Below, in pieces: positions 1-27,402 of a stretch of 27,402 bases of DNA (positions are counted from its first letter, which is position 1; the number at the start of each line of letters is the position of its first letter). Source of the DNA: a virus; IMG/VR virus record IMGVR_UViG_3300039186_001174, positions 1 through 27,402 of that record, one strand, 5' to 3'. The translations under genes were made by a program, and so were the position numbers. Below the pieces are notes generated by a model, which was given only the letters and a program-made list of their open reading frames with translations, searched no databases and was not told the DNA's origin.

Positions 1-139
1 CTATCCACGGTAGAGACGCTTCTAAATCAAGAAAGATTTCACTTATCGCTTCTGGCCAGAGAGATGTTGACATTATCGTTCTTCAAAATGACGGCTCTTA
101 TGTGTATATGAGAAAAGCACAGCTTAATACTATCGCTGA
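1..139. repeat. Left copy of terminal direct repeat (circular overlap)
   Basis: Bases 1-139 match 27264-27402. The first 126 bases are identical, base 127 (A) differs from 27390 (C), and the last 12 are identical. The reading frame at the right end continues correctly into the left end, so this is an assembly overlap of a circular or circularly permuted genome, or a short true terminal redundancy. The mismatch changes an Asn codon (AAT, left) to Thr (ACT, right). Confidence 0.95.
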
Positions 140-4629: not shown

Positions 4630-4932
4630 CTACTGTCTCTCCAAGATAGTATTTTGTGAGCACTTATATTCTTGTAGGTGAAGTTGATTTAAGTGCTCAA
4701 TATCGAGTACTTCATCAATCTTAAACAACTTTGGTGTTGAATTCTCTATGAAGTCACCTGTGAACCTTATAATAGCTTCCATGGCAATTGGTAGATTTCT
4801 TTTGATGTGAGTTTGATAGAATATTTTTTTGTTATTCTTAAATTCAACCTCGTAATATCTGTTGCCAAGTTCATCACCACCAACTAATTTCATTCCTATT
4901 ACCTTACCTGTGTATACTTTTTCAAAAATCAT
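4630..4932 (-). CDS. Small early protein of unknown function
   Basis: A 100-aa protein with an N-terminal beta-rich part of alternating charged and hydrophobic strands (YTGKVIGMKL, NRYYEVEFKN, AIIRFTGDFIE) and a more helical, polar C-terminus with one Cys. The strand pattern would suit a small barrel (OB or SH3-like), but no signature was recognised. The start is set by the AAGCGATG leader at 4930-4937, the same start region as the gene at 6094. It has its own consensus promoter at 4955-4984 and its own terminator, so it is a monocistronic, probably well-expressed early gene. Confidence 0.7.
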   Translation of the reverse strand: MIFEKVYTGKVIGMKLVGGDELGNRYYEVEFKNNKKIFYQTHIKRNLPIAMEAIIRFTGDFIENSTPKLFKIDEVLDIEHLNQLHLQEYKCSQNTILERQ

Positions 4933-5833: not shown

Positions 5834-6094
5834 TCATCTCCCTTGCTTTGGTTTGTTTATTTGTTGTTTAATTAATTCAGCATCCTCATAGCGCTCTTCT
5901 GCTACAGCTTTATCTAATGCCTTTTGTAAGTCAATTGGCGGCACTACTTCGCTTATTACATGTTTAGTAAACACCCTTGAATACAATTCTAACTCAATTG
6001 CTTGGACCAAATCTTGGTGCTCCACCTTGTGTTTTATGAGAGATAGCATTTGATTCAACTGTGCATTACTCATTTCTTTTATGTTTTCTTTCAT
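5834..6094 (-). CDS. Small protein with UVR-like motif
   Basis: An 86-aa helical protein. Residues about 56-80 (LQKALDKAVAEERYEDAELI and following KQQI) match the UVR motif pattern of UvrB, UvrC, ClpC and McsA: a helical hairpin with Leu, a conserved acidic and aromatic pair (R-Y-E), Ala and a basic-hydrophobic end. In those proteins the motif mediates protein-protein contact. The N-terminal half is a separate helical segment. As a free-standing early phage protein it could bind a host UVR partner (UvrB/UvrC or Clp machinery); this is inference. The start is supported by the AAGCGATG leader and the promoter at 6118-6150. Confidence 0.7.
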   Translation of the reverse strand: MKENIKEMSNAQLNQMLSLIKHKVEHQDLVQAIELELYSRVFTKHVISEVVPPIDLQKALDKAVAEERYEDAELIKQQINKPKQGR

Positions 6095-6176: not shown

Positions 6177-7538
6177 TTAAAACTTTTCTGTTTTAATACC
6201 TGGATTTAAATTATAGTTAAGTGCAAATACATCTTCAAGCACTTCTCTAAAGTAATCTAGGTTGTGTAGTTCACCGACAATTGAATCGTGAATGGTACTT
6301 ACGAACATATCTGGTTCCTCAATTCGAATCCTTCTTACGCACTCTGTAATCACCGCCTTACTCTCAACCTTCTGTAGTGAAATTGCAAGCTGTGTGTAAT
6401 CCTCCTGCTTCACCTCTCTTATTATTCTAAAGATAGTTGGGAATAAATTCTTAAATAACTCTTCTTCCTTCTTTAGCTTCTTTCTATTTACATCAAAAAA
6501 GACACGGCCAAAGAATAATAGTTTAAAATCCTTTCTTGCTTTGTCATTTGAATTATCAATTCCAAATGCTTCCATTAAATATTCGTAGAAGATACCGTCT
6601 TCTGTTAGTTTTTTATATTTGGCATACTCCGCATACTCTTTTTCATTCCTCATATTTATTCTTTTCTTTAGGATTAAATTAAGAAGGAATGGTTGTGAGT
6701 TCTTTAAATCAACCTGACCCAGCTTTCTACCTTCAAAGGTAATAAACTGCCTTAAATCGCTTGCTAGGTTGGTTAGGTTGGTGTGAGCTCTATTGCCTTT
6801 AGAGTCAACTATAAAGAATATGTCACCACCAATTATAAGTTCAACTGATAAACGTCTTGCTTCATATTCATCTGAGTATGGTGTGTAATTATCGTTGATA
6901 TACTTCATTGCGGCAGATTGATTAATCTTTATCTTGTGGATATAGTTAAATAGGTGTTCATAATCTGCTCCAGCTGCTCTTGCTTCTAATCTTTGTTTTT
7001 CTTTGAAATTGTTCATCTTTTTTATTATTAATTTATCTTCAATCTTGACTCTATAAAATGTATCGGAATAAGAGGGGCTGTTAGTTGGGAACCTGTAACC
7101 GTAACTCTTGCTCCCTACCTTTCTCTTGTAATCACATTCTATTATATCCCATGTTATTAGGTCACCTATAATCTCCTTACACTTCCTCTGGCTAATAACT
7201 TCTCTTAATGTATCTGTATTCAAATTAACAAAAGAATCCTTTGTTAGTTTCTTGTTCTTAAATCTTCCTAGATAGATTGTAGATATGATATAAGCGTAGT
7301 GAAAGAAGAAACGCTCCTTCCTTCCTTTATCTAAAATAAGTTGCTTTAAATCTATTCCTTTTGGTATATATAAAAATGTATCGGAATAAGGGGTGTTGTG
7401 ATAGTTGGTTGTAGATTGTGGTAAATCGCCTTTAGTGATTGTATCTGTATCTACTGGAGTAATAACTACTTCTTGTGAATAAGTTAATCCAGTCTGTAAT
7501 ACTGTACCTGTTTGATTGTCTGTTACTGTGTGTTTCAT
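6177..7538 (-). CDS. Replication protein: winged-helix plus family-A DNA polymerase palm-like domain
   Basis: A 453-aa protein. Residues about 60-150 look like a Rep-type winged helix (VNLNTDTLREVISQRKCKEI, then an IIECDYKRKVGSKSYGYRF wing). The C-terminal part carries motifs in the order and spacing of PolA palms: GNRAHTNLTNLASDLRQFI (248-266) leading to motif A GQVDLKNSQP with Asp277; a motif-B-like KARKDFKLLFFG (333-344); and motif C STIHDSIVGE with His417-Asp418. It lacks the 3'-5' exonuclease and N-terminal nuclease of PolA and is about half its length. It is the only replication enzyme visible in the genome, so it probably initiates and/or synthesises phage DNA (inferred). A structured leader and repeats lie just upstream. 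It could also be an inactive palm used as initiator. Confidence 0.75.
   Translation of the reverse strand: MKHTVTDNQTGTVLQTGLTYSQEVVITPVDTDTITKGDLPQSTTNYHNTPYSDTFLYIPKGIDLKQLILDKGRKERFFFHYAYIISTIYLGRFKNKKLTKDSFVNLNTDTLREVISQRKCKEIIGDLITWDIIECDYKRKVGSKSYGYRFPTNSPSYSDTFYRVKIEDKLIIKKMNNFKEKQRLEARAAGADYEHLFNYIHKIKINQSAAMKYINDNYTPYSDEYEARRLSVELIIGGDIFFIVDSKGNRAHTNLTNLASDLRQFITFEGRKLGQVDLKNSQPFLLNLILKKRINMRNEKEYAEYAKYKKLTEDGIFYEYLMEAFGIDNSNDKARKDFKLLFFGRVFFDVNRKKLKKEEELFKNLFPTIFRIIREVKQEDYTQLAISLQKVESKAVITECVRRIRIEEPDMFVSTIHDSIVGELHNLDYFREVLEDVFALNYNLNPGIKTEKF
7055..7072 (-). repeat. 18-bp repeat inside the replication gene, copy A
   Basis: AAAATGTATCGGAATAAG is identical to 7373-7390, 318 bp away and in the same frame. 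It encodes YSDTF at residues 157-161 of the replication protein, just after the winged-helix region; the other copy encodes the same peptide just before it. It could be a conserved peptide repeat or an iteron-like DNA site. Confidence 0.9.
7373..7390 (-). repeat. 18-bp repeat inside the replication gene, copy B
   Basis: Identical to 7055-7072. It encodes YSDTF at residues 51-55, on the N-terminal side of the winged-helix region. Both copies are also flanked by C-rich minus-strand sequence upstream (CCCC, CCCCT). Confidence 0.9.
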
Positions 7539-7687: not shown

Positions 7688-7721
7688 ATGATGAACGGTA
7701 TGTATAGGATGATGAACGGTA
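7688..7721 (-). repeat. Two tandem 13-bp repeats, 21 bp apart (ATGATGAACGGTA)
   Basis: Exact copies at 7688-7700 and 7709-7721 lie on the same face of the helix (21 bp, two turns), and a third copy is at 4093-4105. A partial match, AACGGTATGT, lies at 7619-7628 inside the leader hairpin. All full copies are just upstream of TTG elements of leftward promoters. The 235-bp gap 7539-7773 holds no gene on either strand other than these elements. Confidence 0.7.
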
Positions 7722-7773
7722 TTATGTATTTATTTAAAAAAGAGAAAAAGAAATACATATGCCGAACCACCTG

Positions 7774-8166
7774 CTATTCAATTCCGAAGAAAGTGACCAA
7801 CCTATCCAGTTCATCACCAAATAAATCTAAAAAGCTACCTGGACCTTTTCCTCCACATTCAACCATATCTATTGTAAGTGAACTTATTTCGATATAGAAG
7901 CACATGGACCTCACCTTATCAAGATATTTATATGTCTCAGGCCTGTTTACAACGACTAATAGATATTTATTGTCCAAGACGGTAGATGACTTAAACCATT
8001 CCTTTATACGAGCTCTAATCTCTTTCTCCTTTTCTGGAACATCCTTCTGGGGGAGCATATACTTAATATTGAATTCAATATTAACATCTCTGCTTGGAGT
8101 ATTAAGCGCCATTGCCTTCGCACTATACCCTTTTTCTTTTTTTATAATCAATTTATCTTTTCTCAT
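7774..8166 (-). CDS. Unknown early protein, 130 aa
   Basis: A basic N-terminus (MRKDKLIIKKEKGYSAKAMA), then an alpha/beta-like middle with KEIRARIKEWF and YLLVVVNRPETYKYLDKVRS, and a C-terminal GGKGPGSFLDLFGDELDRL segment. No domain recognised and no signal peptide. An open frame of 96 codons runs antisense over its 5' half (7904-8194) but has a hydrophobic, low-complexity product. The leftward frame is preferred because it continues the operon direction and starts behind an A/T-rich leader. It faces the sigma gene divergently across 89 bp. Confidence 0.65.
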   Translation of the reverse strand: MRKDKLIIKKEKGYSAKAMALNTPSRDVNIEFNIKYMLPQKDVPEKEKEIRARIKEWFKSSTVLDNKYLLVVVNRPETYKYLDKVRSMCFYIEISSLTIDMVECGGKGPGSFLDLFGDELDRLVTFFGIE

Positions 8167-8242: not shown

Positions 8243-8255
8243 AATAAAGATATAT

Positions 8256-8939
8256 ATGACATTCAACGAACATAGAGATAAATTAAGAGCTAATAAATAT
8301 GAGCCAATCCCAAATAAAGAACTAAATCAATTAGCTATCCATGGTGAAGATAGAGATAGAGTAGTTAATTCATTACAGAGATTAGCCGTTAAAGCGGTGG
8401 GTAAGATAATGTTTTATAATTCCACCACCGACTCCACTCTTTTTGAATTGCTCCAGGTGGCCAATGAATCACTTGCAGTATCTCTTAGTCAATATAAAAT
8501 AGATAAGATAGACTTCTCGCTGTATGTATATACATCAATGCTAAACGCAATTATAAGCTATCTAAGGAATAAACATAATATAGTGAAGTCTTCTATTAAA
8601 GAAAAAAAAAGAGATTATGCAAACTACTTCTACATTGACAAGAAAATAGACATAGATGATGAACCGTTTGAACTTGAAGATGAAAGTGAAGAATTATTCA
8701 ATGATAAAATAGATATAGACTATTTATATAAATTGGTTAATAAAGTAAAGAAGCGTGACTGGACCATTTTTGTTTACCACTTTGGATTTTTGGACGATTG
8801 GCCAAAGAAAAATAAAGAAACAGCATTGAAGTTTAAAATTAGTGCAGAGAGAATTAGACAAATCATTTTAAGAACAAACTTAAAAATAAAAAACAGCGAA
8901 GAAGCGTTGGAATATTTACAAAATTTCCAATATAAATAA
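8256..8939 (+). CDS. Phage sigma-70-like RNA polymerase sigma factor
   Basis: A 227-aa protein with the two core sigma domains. Residues about 36-105 match sigma region 2: NSLQRLAVKAVGKIMFY, then LFELLQVANESLAVSLSQY, DFSLYVYTSMLNAIISYL, parallel to the DLIQEGNIGL...FSTYA...I pattern. Residues about 155-215 match region 4: a VKKRDWTIFVYHFGFLDDW helix pair, then the ETALKFKISAERIRQIILRT helix-turn-helix, parallel to EIG..LGVTRERVRQI. An acidic linker (130-152) separates them; regions 1.1 and 3 are absent or short. It should redirect host RNA polymerase to phage promoters. Its own promoter looks early. It is the best candidate to read the late motif or a middle class. Confidence 0.8.
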   Translation: MTFNEHRDKLRANKYEPIPNKELNQLAIHGEDRDRVVNSLQRLAVKAVGKIMFYNSTTDSTLFELLQVANESLAVSLSQYKIDKIDFSLYVYTSMLNAIISYLRNKHNIVKSSIKEKKRDYANYFYIDKKIDIDDEPFELEDESEELFNDKIDIDYLYKLVNKVKKRDWTIFVYHFGFLDDWPKKNKETALKFKISAERIRQIILRTNLKIKNSEEALEYLQNFQYK

Positions 8940-10042: not shown

Positions 10043-10618
10043 ATGACTAAACGAGCGATTGACAAATACTTCACGGCAAACCATAGTGATATTAAAAATT
10101 ACATAAAGAATCAATTCTTTAAAACTAATATATTTAAAGAATCTCCAGATTACTTCCTTACAGAGTGTTATCTATATGTAACTAAACGAAAGGATGATAT
10201 AAATGATGTGATTGAATTAAGTAAATACATTAGCACATTCATATTCAATCATACCAATTGGAAGAATTCAAGGGTTAGAGAATTAGATTGCTATCATAGG
10301 GCATCAAAACTGGTAGAATTCAATGTAGAAAAATACAACCAGGTTAATGAGGGTGGAATAGAAGAGAAGATTTTCAACGAACTGGCCATTACAGACTATA
10401 AAGCAATAAGTGAATTATACTATCAACAACTATCTACATTAGAAGAAAAAGTCGTATGGGAGATATACTTCCTTGAGGGTTGTACATCATATGCTAAGTT
10501 CGGAGCACACATAGGTCGCTCAAGAAGTGTTGGTGAAAAATACGTCAAATGGTTAAGGGAAGATTTGAAGTCCTTCTATATCGCTTACAAAGAGAAATAT
10601 GATAAATATGATAAATAA
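10043..10618 (+). CDS. Second sigma-like (ECF-type) transcription factor
   Basis: A 191-aa protein with an ECF-sigma-like plan. Residues about 33-80 resemble region 2 (SPDYFLTECYLYVTKRKDD, then VIELSKYISTFIFNHTNWK). Residues about 122-178 resemble region 4: ISELYYQQLSTLEEKVVWEI, FLEGCTSYAKFGAHIGRSRS, VGEKYVKWLREDL, i.e. the L...R.V...Y.EG.S..EIA..LG.S...V pattern. The match is weaker than for the factor at 8256. It lies directly upstream of the first late motif, whose ATG box is inside its last codons, so it is well placed to be the middle-to-late switch. It could instead be a DNA-binding protein derived from a sigma factor. Confidence 0.6.
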   Translation: MTKRAIDKYFTANHSDIKNYIKNQFFKTNIFKESPDYFLTECYLYVTKRKDDINDVIELSKYISTFIFNHTNWKNSRVRELDCYHRASKLVEFNVEKYNQVNEGGIEEKIFNELAITDYKAISELYYQQLSTLEEKVVWEIYFLEGCTSYAKFGAHIGRSRSVGEKYVKWLREDLKSFYIAYKEKYDKYDK

Positions 10619-14976: not shown

Positions 14977-17900
14977 ATGATTTCAACAATAGTTAGAATA
15001 CAATTGGTTGACGGTGACCAAGAGGGTTACCTTGATGTAATGGAAGGTACTGCATTTCCTATCACAAAGTCTATTAGTGATATACGTGATGTATCTTCTC
15101 GTTCTGGGTCGTTTTCAAAAACGATTAAGCTACCAGGTTCGAAGAATAATAGCTTAATGTTAAATAATTACTTCAAATTGAACGTTGAGAGTGGTAAGTT
15201 TGATATTAACAAGATTCAAATGTGTACTGTTATTCAAAACGGTGTTATTGTATTCGATAATGTTTATCTAAGATTGATGAAAGTTGTCACCAATGAGAAT
15301 CGTGGTGAAGAAATGTATGACGAGATTGAATATGAAGTTCAGATTAGAAATAGTGTTTCTGATTTCTTCAAGGATATTAACAATAAGTACTTAAGTGACC
15401 TTAAAGGTTGGGGTACATTTACTCACGACTACACAGTGGCCAATATTTCAGATTCATTTACACACACACAAGTTGATGGTTACAAATATGTAATGCCATA
15501 TATCGAAGGAGGTAATGAATATTCAATCCAAGAGTTTATGCCTGGTATTTATGCCAAACAATACTTTGATAGAATCCACCAACAAAATGGTTATAGCTAT
15601 GAGTGGGATTCAATATCTGCAAGTACTATCCAATTTGATAAATTAATCATACCTTACGGTGGTGACGTTAAGAAGATTAGTGATGACGTTATGTCTGGAA
15701 GAATAATTGAGGCTGATAAATTAGGTTTTGAACAAAGAGTTGAAATCTTTCAAGATTTATATGGTCTACCTTCAACTAGCGCAAAGGTACTTGAGGTTAG
15801 TGAGAATGAAGTTGACCCTCTTGACCTATATTCAGCATCAACATCAACATATGATAATGACCTTATCGTTAATCCACCATCTTCTATTCAATATAAGGTA
15901 ACATTAGATTGGAGATTAGAAGCACATAATTTTGAAGCTTTCGATATATATAATGGTTGGTGGGATATGGATAGTGGAACTCCTTATGAAGATTTAAACG
16001 CTATTAGACCAATGCTTTCGATTCGAGACCAAGTGGGTACCGTTAGAGGTACTGTTTTCCTTGAACCAGATACATACAATACGTTTGGTACATATTACCC
16101 AGACATGGCTGGGGTAGATGTAGGGAGATATGAAGATGGTTATGTTAAATATAATGGTAGTTTTGTCATTCCAACTAATTCTTCAAGAGTTGTTTGTAGT
16201 GGTGGTAGCCAATCATATTTAATCAACGTAACTGATATTGGACCAGCATCTGAAATGACACTACACGAGCAATTAGAATTACCGCACTTAGCTGGTATTC
16301 AAAGATTCCATAAAGAAGATACGCTTCACTACAATACATTTGCCTATAGATTATTTGTTGATAATATATCTATTGAGATAGCACCTTCAACTGATAGTGG
16401 TTTACTTCCAAATAGTGAGATTAATTTACAAAACTTCATACCTAAGAAATTTTTGCAAAGTAATTTCCTAAAATCAATTTATCAAAAATATAACTTATAT
16501 GCTGATATTGACCCAAATAATCCACGTAATATTATCTACAAAACTAGAGATAGTTTCTATGATGATGGTGAGGTAAAGGATTTTACCACTAAATTATGTA
16601 AAGAAATACCTCAAGAAACGTTCTTCATTCCAGAGATTTCATCTAAAAAACTTATATTAAGCTATGCTGATGATGACAAGGACCCTGTTTTAACGGCCTA
16701 TAAGAATGAAACCAATGAAACATATGCTCAAGTTGAAGTAACATTCGAAAATGAGAACGTTAAAGGTATTAAAAGAAATGATGAAAAGTTCTCATCAACA
16801 GTAAATGCTGTTTCATCATTCGGTGCTGTATTACCTATACTATCTCCTGATTTCAAATTCAACACAAGGATAATGATTGATGGTGGTGCATATGCTTGTA
16901 ACACCTTTAAAATTAAAGAGAGTGTAGATGATACATATTCATTCACTAGCTACCCTTACATCGGATTACTTGATAAACCATATGATGCTGATTTCTCAAT
17001 TGAGTATGCACAACCTGATTATTACGCTTACGACCCAGCAAACCTTACAAACAACAATCTATATGTAAATCACTGGAGACGTACACTTTCTCAAATGAAC
17101 TCTGGAAAGATGCTTAAAGCTTATTTCTGGTTAACCGAGGAGGATTTTAAAGGTATCAAGCTAAATGATATATTGAAGGTGAAGGAGTCATTCTTCTATA
17201 TTAATAAGGTTGCTGATTACGATGCTAATAGCAATTTACCAACATTGATTGAGTTATTAACAATTGAAGATGATTTAAGATTATTGCCAATTGGCAGAGA
17301 TGTTAAACAAACGCAAGTCGAAACTAACAGCGGAGTTCCGATTAGACCGAATAGGCCAACTGGACCAGTAATCGGACAACAAGGTGGTTTATCTCATATT
17401 ACACAGACAAGAAATACAATCACATCTATCTTTGGAACGGGTGTTAACACTCTTCAAAACCAAGGGACAGGAAATAACTTGCCGAATAACTTCAGAGGTT
17501 ACGTTGTTGGAGATAATCTATTCCCAACTGAGAGTGGATACTACATCGGTGGTGCCAGTTTAACGAGCACTAAGCTTAGTTTAAGCAATGATGCATCTGT
17601 TTTATCCAATGGAGCATTAACTCAATCTGATGAATTAGGTCAAGTGGTATTCAAACCAGATGGACTTGTATATAATCCAAAATATGTTGGTGATGGATAT
17701 GTGGAACCAGGTTACTATGATAACCCAATTTCGGATATCATATTTACTTACGATATTGTTGATAGTGGAACAACCGCTACAACAACTACAATGAATACTA
17801 CTAAACTACAAATCAATGCGGAAGAAGTTATATTCAGTACTGGTAAAACTATTCAAATGAGTGGAACAAGTGTTGATGTGACTAATACAACGTTAAGTTA

Positions 17901-18489
17901 TAGTGGTAACCCAGTGATTGAATTCACTAACGATGCTACAACAGTTAGTTATGATGGGGAAAAAAGAGTTGAAGTTAATGAAGCTGCTACAACAGTTAGT
18001 TATGATGGGGAAAAAAGAGTTGAAGTTAATGAAGCTGCTACAACAGTTAGTTATGATGGGGAAAAAAGAGTTGAAGTTAATGAAGCTGGAACACTATTCA
18101 CAGAACCTGTGTCATTTATTGATGATGGGTCTTTCAATAGTAGTTTATCAATTTATACAGCAACAACTACAGATGCAACCGTAACAACAATAAGAGAAAT
18201 TCCAATGAATGATACCAGCTTAAACTTATATAATATTAAAGTGGTTGGTAAAGGTGCTGGTTCACAATACTTCTATAAGAATAGTGAGTTATTAATTAAA
18301 GGTAATGGTGTTTCAGCACCAACACAGGTTAATAATGTATATGAGCGTGAGCACGTAACGTCAACAGAAGATAGTGATATCGAATTAACAACATCTGGTG
18401 GTATAGGTGTGATGAGGATAAGAGTTACTGGTATAATAGCAACAACATTCGATTGGATTGTTAAAATAGATGGAAATAAAATAGTATAA
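14977..18489 (+). CDS. Large tail-tip/baseplate protein with fibre-like repeat region
   Basis: A 1170-aa protein, the largest of the phage. The N-terminal module (VRIQLVDGDQEGYLDV, then FPITKSISDIRDVSSRSGSF and SKTIKLPGSKNN) is, as I recall, characteristic of large tail proteins of Bacteroidota phages. A long mixed alpha/beta middle follows. From about residue 790 it becomes fibre-like with Gly/Asn/Thr-rich sequence, and at about 988-1038 it has three 17-aa repeats (TTVSYDGEKRVEVNEAA). A degenerate fourth (TTLSYSGNPVIEFTNDA) directly precedes them. The end (1050-1170) is a compact beta domain. Likely role: tail tip that organises fibres or contacts the host receptor. It starts 7 bases after the previous gene. 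Confidence 0.65.
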   Translation: MISTIVRIQLVDGDQEGYLDVMEGTAFPITKSISDIRDVSSRSGSFSKTIKLPGSKNNSLMLNNYFKLNVESGKFDINKIQMCTVIQNGVIVFDNVYLRLMKVVTNENRGEEMYDEIEYEVQIRNSVSDFFKDINNKYLSDLKGWGTFTHDYTVANISDSFTHTQVDGYKYVMPYIEGGNEYSIQEFMPGIYAKQYFDRIHQQNGYSYEWDSISASTIQFDKLIIPYGGDVKKISDDVMSGRIIEADKLGFEQRVEIFQDLYGLPSTSAKVLEVSENEVDPLDLYSASTSTYDNDLIVNPPSSIQYKVTLDWRLEAHNFEAFDIYNGWWDMDSGTPYEDLNAIRPMLSIRDQVGTVRGTVFLEPDTYNTFGTYYPDMAGVDVGRYEDGYVKYNGSFVIPTNSSRVVCSGGSQSYLINVTDIGPASEMTLHEQLELPHLAGIQRFHKEDTLHYNTFAYRLFVDNISIEIAPSTDSGLLPNSEINLQNFIPKKFLQSNFLKSIYQKYNLYADIDPNNPRNIIYKTRDSFYDDGEVKDFTTKLCKEIPQETFFIPEISSKKLILSYADDDKDPVLTAYKNETNETYAQVEVTFENENVKGIKRNDEKFSSTVNAVSSFGAVLPILSPDFKFNTRIMIDGGAYACNTFKIKESVDDTYSFTSYPYIGLLDKPYDADFSIEYAQPDYYAYDPANLTNNNLYVNHWRRTLSQMNSGKMLKAYFWLTEEDFKGIKLNDILKVKESFFYINKVADYDANSNLPTLIELLTIEDDLRLLPIGRDVKQTQVETNSGVPIRPNRPTGPVIGQQGGLSHITQTRNTITSIFGTGVNTLQNQGTGNNLPNNFRGYVVGDNLFPTESGYYIGGASLTSTKLSLSNDASVLSNGALTQSDELGQVVFKPDGLVYNPKYVGDGYVEPGYYDNPISDIIFTYDIVDSGTTATTTTMNTTKLQINAEEVIFSTGKTIQMSGTSVDVTNTTLSYSGNPVIEFTNDATTVSYDGEKRVEVNEAATTVSYDGEKRVEVNEAATTVSYDGEKRVEVNEAGTLFTEPVSFIDDGSFNSSLSIYTATTTDATVTTIREIPMNDTSLNLYNIKVVGKGAGSQYFYKNSELLIKGNGVSAPTQVNNVYEREHVTSTEDSDIELTTSGGIGVMRIRVTGIIATTFDWIVKIDGNKIV
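17938..18090 (+). repeat. Three 51-bp tandem coding repeats
   Basis: Units start at 17938, 17989 and 18040. The first two are identical at every base and the third differs only in its last codon (GGA for GCT). Each encodes 17 residues, so copy-number changes keep the frame. Near-perfect DNA identity implies recent expansion. Confidence 0.95.
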
Positions 18490-24683: not shown

Positions 24684-25916
24684 ATGCTAAAAAATAGCCT
24701 ACCTATATATAACGTTACGATTGACGATGAATACGGTGAGAACGGAGAAGTTCTTGGTATTGATTTAATCTCAAATGTAAAGAACCCAGCGTTTATCAAG
24801 GGTGTTGCATTTTCTAGTAAAGAACAGAAACAAATGCGTTTCACAGATTCAAAGAAATATAGAATAGCAGCTCCAGTGATGGTGCCAGATGATGTTTTTA
24901 GAAATGATGAAGACGGTGAGTATATGTTAACGTTCACTACTCAAGTCATTGAGAAGATAGCAAAGAAATTTATGAAAGGATTATCGAGTAAAGGCGGTGG
25001 TGTTTTCAATTTAGAGCACGAAGATGATATGGTTGATAGTTATATACTAGAAGCTATCCTTGTTGACGATGTAAATAAGATTAAGATGATTAAGGAATCA
25101 TATGGAGTAGATGTTCCAGAAGGTACTTTCTTCGTTGTTCAGCAATTCAACTCAATAGAAAAATTTGAAGAGTTAGTTGCTAATGGACAAACAGGATTTT
25201 CACTTGAAGGGTATTTAGGTATGTCTTTAGTTGAAGATGAAAATAAAAATAAAAAATCAAAATTAAGTAAGATGAAAAACAAAAAGAAATTTGTTGGATT
25301 TAAAAGAACTTTTAAATCAGCTTCAATGAAGAAGATGGAAGAAGTAATTGAAAACGATGATTTGATAATGGTTGCTGAGGAACTTGCTGAAGGTGCTTCA
25401 GTTATTGTTGTTGAAGATATTACTGCTGGTCCAATTGAGGACTTCTCTGGTGAGGTTGACACAATGGTTGACGGTGCTAAAGAAACTGTAATTATCGAGT
25501 CTGGTGTTATCACCGAAGTTGTTAAAGAAGCTGCACCAGTTGCAGAAGAAGTAATGTCCGAAGAAGTAATCGAAGAAGAAGTTACATTAGAAGAGTCTCC
25601 AAAAGAAGAAAAATTAGCTGAACCTATTGCGGAAGTAGTAGAGGAAGAATTAGCTGCACCAGTTGCTGAAGAAGTTGTTGAAGAAGAATTGGCAGAGCCA
25701 GTTGTTGAAGAAGCAATTGCTGAAGTTGCTGAGATTGTTGAAGAAGCACCAGCTGACAAAATGGAAGAGGTTTATCAAATGATTGCTGACCTTAAAGCTG
25801 AAATCGCTGACCTTAAACAAGAAGAAGTTGTTGAAGAAGAAGGAGAAATAGTTATGAACAAACAAAAATTTACCAACGTTTTAACAGCGTTTAACGAGTG
25901 GGCAGCTAGAAGCTAA
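24684..25916 (+). CDS. XkdF-type prohead protease fused to scaffold domain
   Basis: A 410-aa protein. The N-terminal domain (about 1-200) fits the XkdF-like phage serine protease family: LPIYNVTIDDEYG, ISNVKNPAFIKGVAF, YRIAAPVMVPDDVFRND, then the catalytic His112 in FNLEHED and Ser173 in TGFSLEGY. A Lys-rich linker follows (GFKRTFKSASMKKMEEV, about 205-222). The C-terminal part (about 270-390) is a Glu/Ala/Val/Pro low-complexity region plus a coiled coil (EVYQMIADLKAEIADLK), expected for an internal scaffold, and ends VLTAFNEWAARS. The protease should cleave the scaffold and mature the head. It precedes the capsid gene. A strong antisense frame over the Glu-rich region is a composition artefact. 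Confidence 0.88.
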   Translation: MLKNSLPIYNVTIDDEYGENGEVLGIDLISNVKNPAFIKGVAFSSKEQKQMRFTDSKKYRIAAPVMVPDDVFRNDEDGEYMLTFTTQVIEKIAKKFMKGLSSKGGGVFNLEHEDDMVDSYILEAILVDDVNKIKMIKESYGVDVPEGTFFVVQQFNSIEKFEELVANGQTGFSLEGYLGMSLVEDENKNKKSKLSKMKNKKKFVGFKRTFKSASMKKMEEVIENDDLIMVAEELAEGASVIVVEDITAGPIEDFSGEVDTMVDGAKETVIIESGVITEVVKEAAPVAEEVMSEEVIEEEVTLEESPKEEKLAEPIAEVVEEELAAPVAEEVVEEELAEPVVEEAIAEVAEIVEEAPADKMEEVYQMIADLKAEIADLKQEEVVEEEGEIVMNKQKFTNVLTAFNEWAARS

Positions 25917-26989: not shown

Positions 26990-27402
26990 ATGGCATTAAA
27001 TTGTGATGACTTAGAGTCAATTGAAAAAGGTTGTGTATCCGCTATAGGTGGATTGAATCAAACAATCTATATAAACGATTCAGAGAACGTTGACTTCTCT
27101 GCATTCACTTTATCAGTATCTGCGCATACATACACAGCTTTAGCACTTGTTGGTGCAGTAACGTTCGAGAAGATTGAATTCAGAAAGAATTTAGCTACAT
27201 TCTCTGAAGATTACACTAAAGCTGATGATGGAAGTGTACTATTCACTGAAACATTAACACTACCTATCCACGGTAGAGACGCTTCTAAATCAAGAAAGAT
27301 TTCACTTATCGCTTCTGGCCAGAGAGATGTTGACATTATCGTTCTTCAAAATGACGGCTCTTATGTGTATATGAGAAAAGCACAGCTTACTACTATCGCT
27401 GA
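26990..27402 (+). CDS. Probable major tail (tube) protein, N-terminal part (gene continues at left end)
   Basis: The ATG at 26990 (MALNCDDLESIEKGCVSAIG) opens a frame that runs off the right end after 137 codons and continues in phase at base 140, ending at 251, for 174 aa in total. The sequence is beta-rich, with two N-terminal cysteines and segments GLNQTIYINDSENVDF, FTETLTLPIHGRDASKSRK, and a VDIIVLQNDGSYVYM hairpin. A tail-tube subunit placed after the capsid gene is the best reading. The region 26903-26989 holds only the terminator and an A-rich leader. Thr at the variable codon here is Asn in the left-end copy. Confidence 0.6.
   Translation, partial: MALNCDDLESIEKGCVSAIGGLNQTIYINDSENVDFSAFTLSVSAHTYTALALVGAVTFEKIEFRKNLATFSEDYTKADDGSVLFTETLTLPIHGRDASKSRKISLIASGQRDVDIIVLQNDGSYVYMRKAQLTTIA
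27264..27402. repeat. Right copy of terminal direct repeat
   Basis: Matches 1-139 except C27390 versus A127. See the left copy. Confidence 0.95.

Follow-up and report, generated by a model that had tools for sequence, protein, structure and literature searches.

To our knowledge, almost every known primase belongs to the DnaG or the AEP type, and for family-A polymerases an initiating-primase function has been established biochemically from SCC elements only. The TV-Pol family comprises exonuclease-less family-A polymerases of mobile elements, 400–600 aa in length, which were predicted to be primase-polymerases and occur in phages as well as in elements with an integrase or resolvase in Bacteroidetes, Planctomycetes and other groups (Iyer, Abhiman and Aravind 2008, PMC2579912). 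Sputnik has a TV-Pol-helicase fusion as its sole polymerase (PMC2579912), and CcPol-MP, the single TV-Pol-type member that was tested, is a primase making primers de novo (PMC7581432).

We analysed the virus record IMGVR_UViG_3300039186_001174 over its whole length (positions 1 to 27,402), hereafter called the window, to which the coordinates refer. A minus-strand gene of the window encodes a 453-aa protein, P0001 (Table 1), half as large as DNA polymerase I; the plus-strand reading of 6177–7538 was rejected because stops occur throughout. P0001 probably belongs with the TV-Pol polymerases. It shares with them the Arg beta-hairpin before the palm (hairpin 242–253, R250 in 91/91 relatives), and its family has the two palm Asp residues and the fingers RxxxK. 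The size is within the TV-Pol range, no nuclease is fused, and the bacterial relatives have integrase or resolvase neighbours. The TV-Pol thumb consists of two antiparallel helices; in the P0001 model several helices lie at 169–236. The N-terminal domain of P0001 is a predicted winged helix, whereas TV-Pols carry an all-helical TV-PolN domain or a C-terminal D5 helicase. This phage also lacks a helicase, although D5-like helicase linkage or fusion marks one TV-Pol subset only. Comparison of the P0001 family with MAP_030 of Microcystis phage Ma-LMM01, taken as a TV-Pol here by position and motifs, gave a HMMER E-value of about 10 and an hhalign probability of 0.4% against this single sequence. 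Some published TV-Pols (e.g. those of Cytophaga, Polaribacter and Gemmata) may belong to the same branch as P0001.

With CcPol-MP and the PolA-SSB primases (PMC7581432, PMC10061031), P0001 would have in common a family-A core serving as the replication primase of a mobile element. CcPol retains the E710/F762 equivalents (PMC7581432), whereas P0001 has Gln for Glu. CcPol, known from Bacillota, acts together with MP, its OB-fold partner, and with a D5-type helicase, while P0001 has a fused winged helix and neither an OB partner nor a helicase was identified for it. The divergent phage polymerases divPolA1 and divPolA2 (PMC11348598) are likewise exonuclease-less or exonuclease-dead PolAs that occur beside a regular DNA polymerase, and a Barbavirus DNA polymerase of divPolA size was among our fold-search matches. 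However, the TM-scores to divPolA-like entries were ~0.3, compared with 0.7 for true P0001 family members, and the N-domain of divPolA2 has no detectable similarity to known domains. What appears to be new is the defined branch in which a winged helix is fused on, absent from current family libraries and widely distributed, from 27-kb to 735-kb phages, together with a complete genome in which such a polymerase stands alone.

Table 1. Coordinates of the P0001 gene, its predicted domains and motifs, repeats of the window, and the second polymerase of three related contigs.
Feature	Position	Strand	Basis or remark
Winged-helix/family-A polymerase protein P0001, 453 aa	6177..7538	(-)	ORF, family and conserved catalytic residues
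N-terminal winged-helix domain, residues 55–150	7089..7376	(-)	AlphaFold2 model, domain model and Foldseek
Helical, thumb-like region, residues 161–240	6819..7058	(-)	AlphaFold2 helices 169–189, 191–200, 207–217, 223–236; putative thumb
Beta-hairpin with invariant Arg250 (D..GxRxHTN)	6780..6815	(-)	Strands 242–244/251–253; R250 91/91
Motif A, strand ending in D277, then NSQP	6690..6728	(-)	D277 91/91; N280–P283 89–90/91
Motif B/fingers O-helix R335xxxK339 (ARKDFK..F)	6492..6545	(-)	K339 91/91; R/K335 87/91
Motif C hairpin T-I-H417-D418-S (STIHDSI)	6270..6299	(-)	H417 and D418 91/91
27-nt intragenic repeat, copy 1	7055..7081	(-)	89% identical to 7373–7399
27-nt intragenic repeat, copy 2	7373..7399	(-)	Partner of 7055–7081
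Two exact copies of ATGATGAACGGTAT, 21 bp apart, in the gene leader	7688..7722	(+)	14-nt copies; possible origin or operator repeats
Terminal repeat, left copy	1..139		138/139 identical to 27264–27402
Terminal repeat, right copy	27264..27402		Pair of 1..139, one mismatch
Reduced second PolA (PF00476) of related contigs	L002 11152–12438; L008 9928–11217; L009 11281–12570		Nearest is actinophage DNA polymerase I

Family-A polymerase core of P0001

The AlphaFold2 model of P0001, built with 47 sequences, had a pLDDT of 85 and a pTM of 0.80. When the model was compared with the PDB using Foldseek, each of the best 50 fold matches was a family-A DNA polymerase (50/50, E from ~1e-5), with apicoplast Pol, Taq, Bst and Pol theta among them. 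In family-A polymerases the two catalytic acids sit in motifs A and C. The RRM palm with catalytic Asp in both motifs, a feature of the family-A DNA polymerase superfamily, was present in P0001 according to the fold match and the conservation in 91/91 relatives. Motif A (GQVDLKNSQP) was modelled as a strand (271–278) with D277 at its end, and H417-D418 as the turn of a hairpin (414–416/419–423) resembling that of the PolA palm. The order of the elements is canonical, from the Arg hairpin at 242–253 through the motif A strand and the R335xxxK339 fingers to the motif C hairpin. Seven residues (R250, D277, Y318, K339, E392, H417 and D418) were invariant in 91/91 aligned relatives; therefore the motifs are not due to chance and selection acts on the active site. 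No exonuclease domain was found in the AlphaFold2 model. On these points the results agree with the first-pass annotation, which had placed motifs in PolA order at GQVDLKNSQP (D277) and STIHDSI (H417-D418), had seen no exonuclease domain and had likened the core to the PolA palm and fingers.

The predicted fold and the invariant catalytic residues strongly suggest that P0001 is a DNA (or nucleic-acid) polymerase by activity. That it would act as a regulator binding DNA, its polymerase domain being dead or vestigial, is hardly credible: winged helices are frequent in repressors, and Fur and MarR were also among the fold matches of the N-domain, but across 91 diverse members neither the two catalytic Asp residues nor the fingers Lys or the hairpin Arg ever vary. 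Another reading concerns the product of the polymerase. The HDS form of motif C also occurs in T7-like RNA polymerases, and Q282 (Gln in 89/91 relatives) occupies the position of the PolA sugar-gate Glu E710, a residue that is usual in family-A polymerases but not defining for RNA-making branches, and that is retained in CcPol (PMC7581432). P0001 could accordingly be pictured as an RNA polymerase or RNA primase of T7-like kin, in which the winged helix would read the promoter. This is very unlikely, as neither T7 RNAP nor mitochondrial RNAP appeared among the best 50 PDB fold matches, all of them DNA polymerases, the R-x3-K-x3-F/Y spacing is of the type typical of DNA polymerases, and the phage has its own sigma-factor-like protein instead.

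Searches of Pfam, PHROGs, NCBIfam and PDB sequences with single proteins, members and profiles gave no credible match, and canonical DNA polymerase I (PF00476) matched none of 47 family members. Weak scattered Pfam matches (Myb, RAD51D_N and the DUF6293_C winged helix) were dismissed as chance. The best two fold matches in BFVD were phage proteins of 403–409 aa with TMq of 0.68–0.71. A0A8D9FR19 ("Putative DNA polymerase I" of an uncultured marine phage) and A0A516L5C2 are like P0001 in size and fold and come with an annotation only.

Winged-helix domain and repeats

The N-domain was modelled with helices 75–94, 108–114 and 117–129 and wing strands 134–136/147–149, and when residues 52–160 were modelled alone the pLDDT was 88.9. 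A winged helix was predicted across the whole family. The best PDB matches of this domain in Foldseek were 4pql, 4pt7 and 5kbj (TMq 0.57–0.58), which we take to be N-domains of RepA_N plasmid initiators; the match to 4pql (TMq 0.57, prob 0.97, E 0.047) is one of fold level only. Fur, MarR and other winged helices ranked close behind RepA_N in this search, no match was below E 0.001, and RepA_N (PF06970) was absent among the Pfam matches listed for 47 and 53 family members. The winged-helix assignment of the modelled domain is therefore secure, while its assignment as an initiator is not; the domain might bind the origin. The region at about 60–150, earlier described as a Rep-like winged helix, thus keeps the winged-helix fold, and its likeness to Rep is confined to the fold (4pql, TM 0.57), with no RepA_N sequence match.

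RepA_N initiators such as that of pSK41 (PMC5703833) resemble P0001 in their winged-helix N-domain, the best PDB fold match of ours. The pSK41 rep gene also has Rep boxes inside it (PMC5703833), and the P0001 gene holds a pair of 27-nt repeats whose copies lie 318 nt apart. This pair tentatively recalls RepA_N plasmids that have the origin inside rep. RepA_N proteins differ in that they have no polymerase and no sequence match to P0001, and the P0001 gene has two intragenic copies only. Near the family genes of relatives no consistent or common repeat that could form an iteron array was found, and the window leader holds two 14-nt copies only; an iteron origin is therefore unsupported across the relatives. 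The GC-skew minimum near 8250 was not accepted as an origin sign, because it is confounded by a coding-strand switch.

Other repeats were seen in the window. A 1170-aa structural gene (14977–18489) contains three perfect 51-bp tandem repeats at 17934–18088, and in the gene located immediately upstream of the putative capsid gene, imperfect 12–39-bp tandem repeats at 25604–25743 encode an acidic stretch rich in E, V and A.

Complete genome and gene company of relatives

The window is a complete, circularly closing phage genome of ~27,263 bp, since its ends share a 139-nt repeat and a related contig (L132) spans the junction, reading without a break from the window's right end into its left end. 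The database lists the record as linear despite the 139-nt end repeat. In the complete genome, the PolB, DnaE, DnaB, DnaG and Prim-Pol profiles had zero matches, no second polymerase-like ORF was present among the other ORFs, and no helicase-like P-loop protein was found, including one in D5-like helicase linkage or fusion. TerL is its sole genuine-looking P-loop protein; a second P-loop pattern match, in a small putative terminase subunit, is probably spurious. The first-pass annotation had recognised no other Rep, primase or polymerase. Because the genome is complete, the absence of any other recognised polymerase, primase or helicase holds for the whole 27,263 bp, in which several small genes carry no family assignment.

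Directly downstream of the polymerase gene and on the same strand, 5834–6094 encodes a protein of 86 aa whose UvrB/UvrC (UVR) motif exceeds the Pfam cut-off. A sigma-factor-like protein is located at 8256–8939 (phrog_351, E 4.8e-10), and a 191-aa protein at 10043–10618 has a C-terminal helix-turn-helix-like stretch resembling that of the sigma-factor-like protein.

As the sole recognised polymerase of a complete genome, P0001 could be a full replicase performing origin recognition, priming and copying of all 27 kb with host helicase as the only help, and small polymerases can serve small virus genomes, such as the TV-Pol-helicase of Sputnik (PMC2579912). We regard this as unlikely, because no proofreading domain, helicase or processivity factor was recognised, host Pol III serves many small phages, and a regular replicative polymerase accompanies the huge-phage relatives.

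A first viral scan with the single P0001 sequence gave zero relatives. Using tblastn, five megaphage genomes (595–735 kb, not counting a duplicate sixth record) and one Hymenobacter plasmid were found. The profile made from these tblastn relatives matched 118 viral contigs, and a narrower profile matched 41 bacterial loci, mostly of Bacteroidota with a few of Planctomycetota and others. Most members are 390–570 aa long. The family is uncatalogued, and its relatives are carried by integrated mobile elements, by a plasmid and by the largest phages known. In the surveys a match was carried by 22 of 249 genomes of one family and by 1 of 149 genomes of Planctomycetota, a sporadic occurrence consistent with mobile genes. 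In the tree, the huge-phage members formed one clade (45 rows, support 100/100), and the window protein formed a deep branch of its own among members from small phages and from elements of Planctomycetota and Bacteroidota.

At the bacterial loci, a tyrosine integrase was found within 6 kb in 21/41 cases and a serine recombinase (resolvase) in 9/41. A module of a Sak4-like AAA_24 ATPase and DUF3871 recurs near the family gene (L094, L098, L104, L106 and L112), and an unclassified protein of 110–130 aa recurs at five bacterial loci (L095, L098, L103, L106 and L112). This recurring neighbour is possibly a candidate OB-fold partner. Small unclassified neighbours of the polymerase gene also exist in the window (4630–4932 and 7774–8166), and none of these candidates, including the 110–130-aa cluster, had a family match. 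The Hymenobacter plasmid encodes a separate Rep_3 initiator; thus it is no proof of the family gene acting as a plasmid Rep, and that idea was dropped. A "nucleotide-binding protein" near the family gene on this plasmid (L007 23132–23905) was rejected as ParA, since it is a CAP12/Pycsar TIR effector, a defence protein.

In huge phages the family gene is accompanied by PolB in 11 records and by DnaE in two, mostly together with DnaB. Its distance from DnaB is no more than 20 kb in 6 of 9 large genomes, versus 0.7 expected, a count that includes related phages and uses a limit set after the data were seen. DnaG-type toprim primase-like proteins are present in several huge phages with the family gene, which are therefore not short of a primase; this counts against an initiating-primase role and weakens the idea that huge phages keep the gene for want of a primase. 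In LR756511 and two contigs, a second reduced PolA of 428–429 aa follows directly downstream of the family gene, its start overlapping the stop of that gene, and two large genomes with this second PolA carry DnaE elsewhere. In L008 (12394–14490), a MoxR-like AAA gene has its Walker A apparently split by an intein, while the equivalents in L002 and L009 are intact.

The company of PolB or DnaE in the huge-phage carriers would also fit an accessory polymerase for repair, gap filling or recombination that is dispensable for replication start. The AAA_24 (Sak4-like) ATPase and DUF3871 adjoining some bacterial relatives give a recombination-like context, and such a function is one option given for divPolA2 (PMC11348598). 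We nevertheless find it quite improbable, because a 27-kb phage in which no further replication gene was recognised retains P0001, the family gene travels with integrases in small elements, and a dedicated winged helix suits site recognition more than gap filling.

Proposed role in replication start

The relatives probably start or prime DNA replication, and for P0001 itself the gene company and the TV-Pol precedent of CcPol-MP suggest, with moderate confidence, a role at replication start. On balance, we consider it somewhat probable that P0001 is an active exonuclease-less TV-Pol-type family-A polymerase with a winged helix, and that the mobile element which encodes it uses it to start its own DNA replication. 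The winged helix would bind or melt the element DNA at the origin, and the palm/fingers core, whose polymerase chemistry is strongly supported, would lay the first strand or a primer. By analogy with CcPol-MP, this start may be primer-independent. Bulk synthesis would be done by host DnaB and Pol III, and in huge phages by phage DnaB with PolB or DnaE, since no helicase gene is present here and these enzymes coexist with the family gene in huge phages. With no helicase encoded, the host must supply the unwinding and probably most of the synthesis.

The initial proposal of an initiator and a polymerase fused in one protein, replacing Rep, primase and polymerase, is not without precedent, since TV-Pols and CcPol-MP are known. 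The fusion of a predicted winged helix to an exonuclease-less PolA core stands, while the initiator part comes down to fold similarity, in relatives without consistent iterons. As a general role of the family such replacement is unlikely, because huge phages carry PolB or DnaE with DnaB and some a DnaG-type toprim protein, and the Hymenobacter plasmid has Rep_3. It is conceivable, though doubtful, that the single 453-aa protein combines origin recognition, priming and synthesis, with a relaxed sugar gate, to start replication of the complete 27-kb phage, in which no other phage replication gene was recognised, and so founds a widespread, unnamed class of family-A initiator-primases common to small phages, integrative elements and the largest phages known.

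In conclusion, P0001 represents a conserved uncatalogued winged-helix branch that stands alone in a 27-kb phage and beside full replisomes in 600–735-kb phages. It offers a compact system for testing the start of DNA synthesis by a PolA core, and the proposed role would give a replication label to many "hypothetical" genes of Bacteroidota mobile elements.
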